Shown: in pieces, positions 4,910 through 13,047 of the stretch
Layout of the letters: each line of letters opens with the position of its first letter
Numbering within the stretch: the stretch's first letter is position 1
NCBI GenBank assembly: GCA_029932855.1
Contig: JAOZPG010000027.1
Coordinates: 1-33,661 of the forward strand
From: Bacteroidales bacterium
Lineage (GTDB): Bacteria; Bacteroidota; Bacteroidia; Bacteroidales; VadinHA17
Reading direction: 5' to 3'
Length of the DNA: 33,661 nucleotides
Program-made: the position numbers and the translations under genes
The notes under the pieces: generated by a model
The model's input: only the letters and a program-made list of their open reading frames with translations
The model's database searches: none
What the model was told of the DNA's origin: nothing

Positions 4910-6892
4910 ATGAATAATAAAAGGATACTGCTATTTCTTTCTATAGCACTTATAATTTCATCTTCAACGATATTTGCCCAGAAGAAGAAGCTTCAGAGAG
5001 CAGATGATGCATTTGAGGCAGGTGAGTATTTCGATGCCATTGATCTTTATAAAGATGCTTATGCAGCAATAAGGGACAGATCTGTGAAGACAGGTGTGGT
5101 TTTTCATATTGCTGAATGTTACAGGCACACAAATCAATCTGCCAGGGCTGAATTGTGGTATAAGAAAGCTGTGGGTCAGGATTACCCCGATCCGCTTGCA
5201 GTGCTTTACTATGCTGAATCATTAAAGAAGAACGACAAATATGAAGATGCCATAACTGAGTTTACAATTTATAAGGACCTTGTTCCGGATGATCCCCGTG
5301 GAGATGAAGGAATAACATCATGTGAGCTGGCATTGCAATGGAAGGAAAATTCTGTCGGCTACAAGATTACCGATATGAAGTATTTTAATTCCAGACAAAG
5401 AGATTTTTCTTTAGCCTATGCCAGGGATGATTACAAGTCGGTTTATTTTACATCATCCAGGGAAGATGCTAATGGAAATAAAACACATGGTGCAACAGGT
5501 CAGAGTTTTACCGATATCTTTGAGAGCAAGCTCGACCGTAAAGGAAAATGGAGCGTTCCGCTTGCACTTGATGAAACGATAAACACTGAATTTGAAGAAG
5601 GGACTCCTTCAATAACGGGAGATTACAATACCATGTTTTTTACCCGGTGTGAAATGAGCAAGCGTAAGAAGCTGGGATGTGTTATTATGAGCACAACAAG
5701 AACAGCAGATGGCTGGGGAAAGGCCAAAGCACTTGACATCCTTCCCGACAGCCTTGTGGCTGCACATCCTGCAGTTTCGAAAGACGGACTTACATTATTG
5801 TTTGTGTCTAATATGAAGGGGGGATTGGGACTTAATGATATATGGAAAGTGGAACGCAGTCCCTCGGGTGACTGGGGGGAACCGGTAAACATGGGTCCGG
5901 AAATTAATACTGAAGGCAATGAGTTGTTTCCTTACATTCATGAAGACGGGAGTATCTATTTTTCTTCAGACAGGCATATGGGTATGGGAGGACTTGATAT
6001 CTTCAGGGCCACAGCTGTTGAAGGAGGAGGATGGAATGTTGAGAATATGAGGTATCCTATAAATTCATCTGCCGATGATTTTGGGATTATTTTTGAAGAT
6101 AAGCTGGAACGGGGATTTTTTAGTTCCACACGCAAGGGCAGGGGTAATGATGATATTTTTGCCTTTGCATTGCCACCTTTGAAATTTAAAATTAATGGCG
6201 TGGTTATTGACAGGCGGACTGAAAATATTGTCCCCAATGCAATTGTTAAGCTTATCGGCAGCGATGGTATAACCCTGGAAGATGAAACGGGTGATGACGG
6301 CAGCTTTGGTTTTAACTTAAAACCAAATACCGATTATATATTTTTGGCAACAAAACCAGGATACCTTATAACAAAAGGAAGGGAAACCACAAAAGGACAG
6401 GAGAAGAGTAAAGATTTCAGAATGACCCTTGAGATTGCAGCTATTGACAAGCCTATAGAATTGCCTAATATATTTTATGATTTTGGTAAATACGACCTGA
6501 GGCCTGAATCAATGGTTGCTCTTGATCGCCTGGTTGAAGTGTTGAACGATAATGCTAATATTACTATAGAGCTTGGTTCTCATACAGATATCAGGGATTC
6601 CGAGGAGTTCAATCTTCAGCTTTCACAGAAAAGGGCACAGTCGGTTATCGATTACCTGATAAGTAAAGATATAGCGGCAGACCGGTTAGTAGCAAAAGGA
6701 TATGGGGAGTCTATGCCTAAGATTGTGGATCCCAAGAATGAAAAAAATTATCCTTTCCTGAAAGACGGTGATGTTCTTGATGAGAAGTTCATAAATTCCC
6801 TGAAGACCAGGGAAGAGCAGGAAATAGTACATCAGCTGAACAGGAGGACAGAGATGAAGGTTCTGAGGACTGATTACGGGACTGTTGAATAA
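4910..6892 (+). CDS. OmpA-family protein with TPR, beta-propeller and regulatory domains (PorE-like)
   Basis: A signal peptide covers about residues 1-23 (cleavage near IFA-QKK). Four regions follow: TPR-type helices (about 25-140), a PD40/WD40-like beta-propeller (about 165-420, with SS-x-R and DIF/DIW strand ends), a carboxypeptidase-regulatory-like beta-sandwich (about 425-505, INGVVIDRRT onward) and a C-terminal OmpA peptidoglycan-binding domain (520-660; IFYDFGKYDLRPES, SHTD to D561, LSQKRAQSV with R575). This order and the 660-residue length match PorE of Porphyromonas gingivalis (PG1058), a periplasmic T9SS component thought to link the system to peptidoglycan. Similar multi-domain OmpA proteins exist outside T9SS, so the name PorE remains probable rather than certain. 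No lipobox is seen. purM starts 22 nt downstream, so some read-through is likely. Confidence 0.82.
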   Translation: MNNKRILLFLSIALIISSSTIFAQKKKLQRADDAFEAGEYFDAIDLYKDAYAAIRDRSVKTGVVFHIAECYRHTNQSARAELWYKKAVGQDYPDPLAVLYYAESLKKNDKYEDAITEFTIYKDLVPDDPRGDEGITSCELALQWKENSVGYKITDMKYFNSRQRDFSLAYARDDYKSVYFTSSREDANGNKTHGATGQSFTDIFESKLDRKGKWSVPLALDETINTEFEEGTPSITGDYNTMFFTRCEMSKRKKLGCVIMSTTRTADGWGKAKALDILPDSLVAAHPAVSKDGLTLLFVSNMKGGLGLNDIWKVERSPSGDWGEPVNMGPEINTEGNELFPYIHEDGSIYFSSDRHMGMGGLDIFRATAVEGGGWNVENMRYPINSSADDFGIIFEDKLERGFFSSTRKGRGNDDIFAFALPPLKFKINGVVIDRRTENIVPNAIVKLIGSDGITLEDETGDDGSFGFNLKPNTDYIFLATKPGYLITKGRETTKGQEKSKDFRMTLEIAAIDKPIELPNIFYDFGKYDLRPESMVALDRLVEVLNDNANITIELGSHTDIRDSEEFNLQLSQKRAQSVIDYLISKDIAADRLVAKGYGESMPKIVDPKNEKNYPFLKDGDVLDEKFINSLKTREEQEIVHQLNRRTEMKVLRTDYGTVE

Positions 6893-10853: not shown

Positions 10854-11687
10854 ATGAATTATATAAAGTTGTTTGAGAAAATAAAGGAAAAAAGTAGTTT
10901 TTTGTGCATTGGCCTGGATTCAGATCCCCTCAAAATCCCGGAACATCTGAATGATCTTGAAGATCCTGTTTTTGAATTTAATAAACAAATAATTGATTCT
11001 ACCCACCAGTATACGGTTGCTTATAAACCAAATATAGCTTTTTATGAAAGCCGTGGTGTTGATGGCTGGATAAGTCTTCAGAAGACTCTTGATTATATCA
11101 GGGAAGTAGATGATGAGATATTTGTTATCGCTGATGCAAAGAGAGGTGATATTGGAAATACCTCAAAGATGTATGCCCGGACTTTTTTTGAAACAATGGA
11201 TTTTGATGCTCTGACAGTAGCTCCTTACATGGGAGTGGATTCGGTTGAACCTTTCCTGCAATATGATGATAAATGGGTTATACTTCTTGCTTTAACTTCA
11301 AACAGGGGAGCTGATGACTTTCAGTTTTTAAAAGACAGCAACAGTGGGGAAAGCCTATTTGAGAGAGTTCTTGCAAAAGGGAAAGAATGGGGCTCAAAAG
11401 ATCAGATGATGTTCGTGGCAGGGGCTACCAGGGCAGAAATGCTGGCAGATATAAGAAATATCATTCCCGATCATTTCCTGCTTGTGCCCGGTGTGGGTGC
11501 TCAGGGAGGCAGCCTTAAAGAAGTGGCCAGGTATGGGATGAATGATAAATGTGGATTGCTTGTTAACTCGTCAAGAGCTATAATTTTTGCTGATAATGGA
11601 GAGAATTTTGCGGCAGTAGCTAAAGAAAAGACAAAAGAACTGCAGATGGAAATGAAGCTCTACCTTACAGAAAAGGGAATAATCTAA
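10854..11687 (+). CDS. pyrF: Orotidine 5'-phosphate decarboxylase (type 2)
   Basis: PyrF removes CO2 from OMP to give UMP, the last step of de novo pyrimidine synthesis. The catalytic Asp-x-Lys-x-x-Asp motif is intact as DAKRGD (94-99, Lys96). The phosphate-binding GVGAQGG near residue 220 and the [11 protein letters not shown] strand complete the TIM barrel. The 277-residue length and the [12 protein letters not shown] segment place it in the longer type 2 family common in Bacteroidota. It is cytoplasmic. The gene is preceded by a 339-nt spacer and followed by 85 nt containing a GC hairpin without a T-run, so read-through into DUF2851 is possible. Confidence 0.96.
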
Positions 11688-11772: not shown

Positions 11773-13047
11773 ATGACTGAGCCTTTTCTCCAGTTTTTGT
11801 GGAAACGCCGGCTGTTTTGGTCATCTATGAAGATTCAGCGAACAGGAGAACTGGTTAAAATAATTAATTGTGGAGAACAGAACCCGGATGCAGGTCCTGA
11901 CTTTTTCAATGCAAGGATTGAAATAAACGGAGTGCTGTGGGCCGGAAATGTTGAGATTCATTTAAAGGCATCAGACTGGTTAATCCACAAGCATGACAGG
12001 GACCCGGCTTATAATAATGTAATACTGCATGTATGCCTTGAGGATGACAGGGAAATATTTACTTCGGCAGGCAGAATAATACCTGCTCTGGAGATTAATA
12101 TTGATCCTGGCAGGCTCAGTCAATATTCCGGGCTTATGGAAAGCGAAGAATGGCTTGCCTGCAGGGATTCCATTAATAAAGTTGAACCTTTCAGGATAAA
12201 ATACTGGCTTGGGAGCATATTGGTGGAGAGGATTATTGAGAAGACAAAGGCATTTGAGAAAATACTTGGGGCAAACAGGAATGACTGGGAGGAAAGCTTT
12301 TACCAGGGACTGGCAAGGGCTTTTGGATTTAAGATTAATGCAGACCAGTTTGAATCGCTGGCGCGCTCACTTCCTTTGAGATATCTTTTTCATCACAGAG
12401 ACAGGCTTTTTCAATTGGAAGCATTATTATTCGGGCAGGCAGGATTTTTAACTGATAATACGGACGGTGATGAATATTTTCTTAGCCTGTCTAAAGAATA
12501 TAATTTCCTGAGAAAAAAATACAGTCTAAAAGCCATGGAGGTTCATCAATGGAAATTCATGAGGATAAGACCTTCAAATTTTCCGACTTTGAGAATTGCT
12601 CAGTTTGCTGCACTTATCAGTCATGCCGGTTCTTTGTTCTCCTCTTTTATTGGAGCTGCCGGAATAAAGGACATGCTTGAGCTATTTAACTTCCGCTTAT
12701 CTGATTACTGGAGGGATCATTACAGGTTTAATAAGATATCCACCGTTAGGGAGAAGGCATTAGGCAGAGAAGCTTCATTTTCCCTGTTGATCAATACGCT
12801 TATTCCTTTTATGTATTTGTATGGGAAGTCTACAGGCGATGAGGAACTTGCTGAAAGGGCAGTAAACCTGCTGGACGAGATACCACCTGAGAAGAATTCA
12901 ATAATAAGAAGTTGGGATGAAGCCGGCATACATGCAGACAGTGCTCTTTATTCACAGGCACTTATTCAATTAAAGAATAAATATTGTAATTTTAAACGTT
13001 GCCTGGAATGTGAGATTGGAAACCAGCTTCTGGCAGCTAATAAATAA
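11773..13047 (+). CDS. DUF2851 family protein
   Basis: This 424-residue protein matches DUF2851, widespread in Bacteroidota and of unknown function. The conserved N-terminal block is NPDAGPDFFNARI, then WAGNVEIHLKASDW, a His/Asp-rich HKHDRDPAYNNVILHV, and a mostly helical remainder with GQAGFL and RIRPSNFPTLRIAQFA. It ends with a conserved cysteine cluster, YCNFKRCLEC (C-x4-C-x2-C). There is no signal peptide or membrane segment. The spacing of PD and E-x-H within a beta-rich N-terminus recalls PD-(D/E)XK nucleases, but that is my inference, not an established assignment. The K+ channel gene starts 3 nt after the stop, so the two are co-transcribed. Confidence 0.9.
   Translation: MTEPFLQFLWKRRLFWSSMKIQRTGELVKIINCGEQNPDAGPDFFNARIEINGVLWAGNVEIHLKASDWLIHKHDRDPAYNNVILHVCLEDDREIFTSAGRIIPALEINIDPGRLSQYSGLMESEEWLACRDSINKVEPFRIKYWLGSILVERIIEKTKAFEKILGANRNDWEESFYQGLARAFGFKINADQFESLARSLPLRYLFHHRDRLFQLEALLFGQAGFLTDNTDGDEYFLSLSKEYNFLRKKYSLKAMEVHQWKFMRIRPSNFPTLRIAQFAALISHAGSLFSSFIGAAGIKDMLELFNFRLSDYWRDHYRFNKISTVREKALGREASFSLLINTLIPFMYLYGKSTGDEELAERAVNLLDEIPPEKNSIIRSWDEAGIHADSALYSQALIQLKNKYCNFKRCLECEIGNQLLAANK

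Follow-up and report, generated by a model that had tools for sequence, protein, structure and literature searches.

Conserved Histidine, Acidic, and Cysteine Residues in a Bacteroidales DUF2851 Protein with a Predicted PD-(D/E)XK-like Domain

The DUF2851 Gene and Its Neighbors

The window analyzed here is the whole 33,661-nucleotide stretch of contig JAOZPG010000027.1 from a Bacteroidales bacterium (assembly GCA_029932855.1). On its forward strand, positions 11773–13047 encode a protein of 424 amino acids plus a stop, as judged from the open reading frame call and a Pfam match. Residues 3–376 match PF11013 (DUF2851) with an E value of 2.2e-138 and 461.8 bits, above the curated cutoff of 25 bits, and the identity and boundaries that the initial annotation assigned to this gene are correct. 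This is the only DUF2851 match in its own genome. The sequence elements on which that annotation built its case are all present: GPDFFNARI occupies residues 41–49, WAGNVEIH with its E-x-H occupies residues 56–63, a His/Asp-rich stretch follows at about residues 64–88, and a C-x4-C-x2-C cluster (C405, C410, and C413) lies at the end. This cluster is outside the Pfam model of the family, which reaches no further than residue 376. Three further conserved residues, E3, H86, and C130, had been overlooked. In the portions of the literature available to our search, DUF2851 is mentioned only in a table of PMC3861447, and an earlier assignment in surveys of the PD-(D/E)XK superfamily is possible. The string PF11013 also occurs in Plasmodium papers, where, judging from their titles, we took it for gene identifiers.

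The gene directly upstream (10854–11687, forward strand; 86 bases from DUF2851) is pyrF-like, and its product is presumably OMP decarboxylase. A TrkA-type K+ channel gene lies 4 bases downstream of DUF2851 on the same strand. Neighborhoods were counted over 145 loci, with a pyrF-like gene scored when it lay on the same strand within two genes upstream; the names given to neighbors (pyrF, TrkA-type, PspC-like, 3′-5′ exonuclease-like, TrmH-like, prs, and maf) are our own assignments from the gene sequences, except where similarity searches supplied them. A pyrF-like gene is found upstream in 33 of the 145 loci, directly adjacent in 29 of them, and the pairing reaches very diverged lineages (L038, L040, L042, L046, L048–L050, L053, and L054). 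Together with a prs-like gene downstream in 3/145 loci and a maf-like gene upstream in 2/145, this could point to nucleotide metabolism instead of a nuclease role, with DUF2851 and PyrF acting together and DUF2851 serving nucleotide or pyrimidine metabolism as a metal-dependent enzyme. We regard such a function as improbable, given that the arrangement is missing in 112 of the 145 loci, that the TrkA-type (37 loci) and PspC-like (31 loci) neighbors carry no such link, and that the fold matches described below are mostly nucleases. The pyrF link is old and real enough to note; it does not fix the function. In L047, L051, and L052, the most diverged members, DUF2851 is followed immediately by the prs-like gene, which has the same orientation and which we take to encode PRPP synthetase. 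We also considered the 3′-5′ exonuclease-like gene (upstream in 12/145 loci) and the TrmH-like gene (7/145) as functional links and rejected both; the exonuclease cases that could be placed fall mostly in one genus.

Distribution of the Family

A family search found DUF2851 in 216 of 296 sampled genomes of the phylum. Among the 20 genomes listed without a match, 18 belong to one family, and there are 60 further genomes without a match. The control set of 14 named genomes contains one with DUF2851, Bacteroides ihuae. Outside the phylum, the family occurs in Thermomicrobium roseum, and the table of PMC3861447 lists it for Akkermansia. This wide occurrence counts among the points in favor of the function proposed below.

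A role in mobile elements, defense, or phage biology was considered and set aside, as neither PADLOC, viral contigs, nor the phage and plasmid matches gave any sign of one. PADLOC returned no match for the three members submitted, and no relative turned up when viral contigs were scanned by pattern; both null results fit a chromosomal role. In PHROGs the window protein had no match, and of three members searched a single one had a weak match (E 0.22). The matches in a phage collection amount to three records and those among plasmids to five. The three phage-collection records (MT835991.1, MT839630.1, and MT839555.1), all faecal, unannotated, 4–14 kb long, and labeled "Bacteriophage sp.", encode DUF2851 and may be bacterial fragments.

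At one locus (L059, 2601–5321, reverse strand), a complete DUF2851 and a DNA methylase domain (N6_N4_Mtase, E 7e-10) are fused in a 907-amino-acid frame. Because the G+C content is 0.736 on one side of the junction and drops to 0.58 on the other, an insertion or misassembly is possible, and we give this single case little weight as a functional clue.

Residue Conservation

Conservation was counted in an alignment of 143 proteins including the window protein, mostly from Bacteroidota, which is a sample of the family. One search, in which at least 591 relatives were found and the best 80 retained, contributed 74 sequences, and other family searches contributed the remainder. The other six of the 80 loci were excluded from the count (L069, L072, L079, L091, L123, and L132); in the last of these, a stop interrupts the match at about residue 402. 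A smaller alignment of 67 proteins agrees with the larger one.

Fourteen positions are identical in 143/143 proteins: D43, E61, H63, H72, H74, C130, W10, G34, G41, G58, G185, N189, P271, and R274. Another five (E3, P267, C405, C410, and C413) are kept in 142/143. For E3 and the three cysteines, the one protein lacking them in the alignment is L032 in each case; its DUF2851 gene (5457–6632, forward strand) is broken into two frames, and the C-x4-C-x2-C is present in the second of these. On the forward strand of the window, E3 is encoded at 11779–11781, the P42-D43 pair at 11896–11901 (P42 in 137/143), E61-x-H63 at 11953–11961, and H72-x-H74 at 11986–11994. H86 (12028–12030) is kept in 139/143 and is Gln in the other four (L039, L071, L107, and L111). 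The fourth invariant cysteine, C130, is encoded at 12160–12162 and the C405-x4-C410-x2-C413 cluster at 12985–13011. The two remaining cysteines of the protein serve as an internal control: C33 is kept in 4/143 and C88 in 1/143. The residues of the PD and E-x-H elements are thus invariant or nearly so, and the signature is more than chance. No lysine is invariant among the 143 aligned proteins, the best kept being K157 (121/143). The annotation had read the E-x-H as an E-x-K in which Lys is replaced by His, and the alignment agrees, with His at position 63 in every protein.

Predicted Fold of the N-Terminal Domain

An AlphaFold2 model of the whole protein, computed from 75 aligned sequences, has a pLDDT of 94.4 and a pTM of 0.86. 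When residues 1–126 (11773–12150, forward strand) were modeled alone, the pLDDT was 91.7 and the pTM 0.84, and the secondary structure elements are nearly identical to those of the whole model. DSSP assigns to this isolated domain an alpha-beta-beta-beta-alpha-beta core: a helix at residues 3–11, strands at 27–32, 44–51, and 54–65, a short helix at 68–71, a strand at 83–90, a short strand at 105–107, and a helix at 112–123. In the model, E3 lies in the first helix, D43 directly precedes strand 44–51, E61 and H63 sit on the neighboring strand 54–65, and H86 sits on strand 83–90. The predicted order of elements and the positions of D43, E61, and H63 are those of the PD-(D/E)XK placement, in which the Asp and the Glu of the PD...ExK signature lie on neighboring strands.

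Structural searches with this domain point the same way, with low scores throughout. The best Foldseek match, the Bax1 endonuclease (E 0.083), lacks significance, and the whole model yields nothing usable against the PDB (best E 0.75) or viral structures (best E 0.16). VIA-align returned 42 PDB entries at Z ≥ 2, every one with a Z below 4, and 38 of the 42 are, by our own assignment, of the PD-(D/E)XK type. We take these to include Can1, Can2, Cdn1, Hjc, Bax1, McrC, DdmD, SPARDA, 3dnx (MmcB-like), and 1y88 (Mrr-like) and the restriction enzymes BsmI, PaqCI, MspJI, AspBHI, AgeI, EcoRII, EcoT38I, and BspD6I, and presumably also SfsA, TIP26 (Tk-TIP26, 2czr), XisH, and cap-snatching viral endonucleases including influenza PA. 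Three entries (1nmo, 2yyb, and 5vjn) are in our judgment clearly not nucleases, and one of the 42 (8zue) could not be placed by class. The highest Z, 3.9, belongs to Can1 (83 aligned residues, 3.3 Å), which the whole model likewise retrieves for residues 1–111 at Z 3.9. Such low Z values can reflect just a common arrangement of elements, and any one match would be unconvincing alone; the structural argument is the consistency of the list.

Sequence comparisons were uninformative. Profile–profile comparison of the N-terminal domain with UPF0102 and PDDEXK_1 gave no match, and the profile of an unrelated neighbor family scored higher against it, at 24.6. No other Pfam or NCBIfam family was found in 40 DUF2851 members; a superoxide dismutase hit (NCBIfam, E 0.13) is far below the family cutoff and was set aside. 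HMMER searches of PDB sequences with the protein or with a 40-sequence profile returned nothing at E ≤ 10. The annotation had named two outcomes that would refute its reading, a predicted fold lacking the alpha-beta-beta-beta-alpha core and poor conservation of the PD/E-x-H residues, and neither was seen. The PD-(D/E)XK-like reading is therefore supported at the superfamily level, by the core and by the conservation of the PD and E-x-H residues; the support does not extend to a close relative, given the Z values below 4, the Foldseek E value, and the null profile comparison. What was reported from the sequence stands as an observation and a good hypothesis.

The genome of the window itself has, on contig C37, an intact PDDEXK_1 match at 57250–58110 and near it a second one (60942–61637, reverse strand) with an in-frame TGA and TAA. 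The second may be an AddA-like gene that has been disrupted, or its stops may be errors of sequencing.

The absence of the catalytic Lys counts against a nuclease, since the fold may not cut. SfsA and the TBP-interacting protein are PD-(D/E)XK-fold members thought to bind without cutting, and both SfsA and TIP26 are among the structural matches. The N-terminal domain could likewise have the fold without the activity and bind nucleic acid or a structural metal, a reading that the lack of any invariant lysine favors. We rate it as unlikely, with a chance large enough to be kept in mind, because D43, E61, and three histidines are kept in 143/143 proteins, even very diverged ones, which would be unusual for a dead active site. 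The catalytic Lys of ExK is replaced in some accepted PD-(D/E)XK members.

The Helical Domain and the Four Cysteines

Residues 131–421 (12163–13035, forward strand) are predicted to form a nearly all-helical C-terminal domain. Its best-kept stretch is R266-P-x-N-F-P-x-x-R274 (12568–12594), with R274 and P271 present in 143, P267 in 142, R266 in 135, and N269 in 127 of the 143 proteins. In the model, C130 lies at the start of the domain, just before its first helix, and C405, C410, and C413 lie before its last helix. The four cysteines probably hold a metal and may come together in a single metal or Fe-S site.

HhH-GPD glycosylases emerged as a lead for this domain. EndoIII and MutY of this group carry a [4Fe-4S] loop, and MagIII has no cluster. 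With the whole model, VIA-align placed MagIII on residues 137–409 (Z 4.6, 162 aligned residues, 5.2 Å) and returned a second MagIII entry at Z 4.1 and TAG at Z 2.7. The top row of the same search is an unrelated Fanzor chain (Z 4.7), designed helical proteins reach about 4, and a Z of 4.6 at 5.2 Å is within noise for helical proteins. In profile comparison, the cysteine tail aligns with the Fe-S loop of EndoIII-like proteins at a score of 26.4, against a best of 21.6 for 44 unrelated profiles; EndoIII-like sequences alone scored 20.3 against DUF2851, and 1 of 20 shuffles reached 25.9. Masking the four cysteines lowers the HhH-GPD score from 26.4 to 14.4, and because this removes the profile signal we demoted HhH-GPD to a lead. 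Pursued to its end, the lead would make DUF2851 a repair enzyme in which a PD-(D/E)XK-derived nuclease with a transition-metal site rebuilt from histidines is coupled to a diverged HhH-GPD-like Fe-S helical domain that recognizes damaged or uracil-containing DNA, the fourth cluster ligand coming from the interdomain linker. We would call this specific picture a long shot.

Proposed Function

The reading we prefer, and hold with slightly more confidence than doubt, is that DUF2851 is a two-domain nuclease that depends on metal, its active site being rich in His, and that it also has a four-Cys metal or Fe-S site. The PD-(D/E)XK-type domain would comprise residues 1–126 and would in all likelihood act as a metal-dependent phosphodiesterase (nuclease). 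E3, D43, E61, and H63, helped by H72, H74, and H86, may bind one or two metal ions in an active site that would work without a conserved lysine; so many histidines suggest that the metal is Mn, Fe, or Zn and not just Mg. The His that replaces Lys at position 63 may orient the water that attacks or the leaving group, or stabilize either of them. A metal or Fe-S site at C130, C405, C410, and C413 would tie together the two ends of the helical domain, which itself may bind nucleic acid; R-P-x-N-x-P-x-x-R would be the likeliest contact, and R266 and R274 are the first candidates. The role of such an enzyme would presumably be chromosomal housekeeping, in DNA or RNA maintenance. In this account the conserved residues, the secondary structure, and the likeness of the fold to the superfamily come from computation, whereas the two metal sites, the meeting of the four cysteines, the catalysis, the substrate, and the cellular role are inferred.

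Should cutting by DUF2851 be confirmed, the family would be an example of PD-(D/E)XK nucleases that dispense with the lysine. The combination of EXH, EXK, and nuclease was not found in the literature searched. With a predicted fold, precise candidate metal ligands, and a putative four-Cys site beyond the Pfam model, an unassigned family becomes readily testable.

Comparison with Known Systems

The possible points of resemblance to the HhH-GPD glycosylases (EndoIII and MutY) are the MagIII match to the helical domain (residues 137–414, 162 residues) and a C-terminal cysteine loop that can be aligned with the C-x6-C-x2-C of EndoIII. DUF2851 differs in that no HhH hairpin is recognizable and in that the fourth cysteine precedes the domain.

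The annotation had also drawn an analogy to the Fe-S nucleases AddB, Cas4, and Dna2. Like them, DUF2851 has a nuclease-type core, here a predicted one, and four invariant cysteines, of which three lie toward the C terminus and the remaining one at a distance; that part of the analogy stands. The arrangement does not. In AddB and Cas4, as described in the part of PMC3466216 available to us, one Cys is N-terminal and three are C-terminal to the nuclease core. In DUF2851, all four follow the core, with C130 first and the other three some 275 residues further on, so what they flank is the helical domain, which is separate from the core, and this is not the staple arrangement reported there. That DUF2851 is a true member of the iron-staple nucleases is hardly credible on these grounds; its spacing (C-x4-C-x2-C) differs, the ExK lysine is lacking, and the PDDEXK_1 profile comparison was negative. 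QxxxY is the RecB-type motif, and no conserved Gln was found between residues 63 and 185 among the 143 proteins, so this motif is missing as well.

Set against the PD-(D/E)XK nucleases, of which Can1, Bax1, 3dnx, 1y88, and BsmI are structurally closest, DUF2851 departs in its invariant His for Lys, in the extra histidines H72 and H74 (invariant) and H86 (near-invariant), and in structural scores that are low throughout. It shares with them the predicted order of the fold, an Asp at the start of a core strand, a Glu-x-basic on the next strand, and an acidic residue in the first helix.
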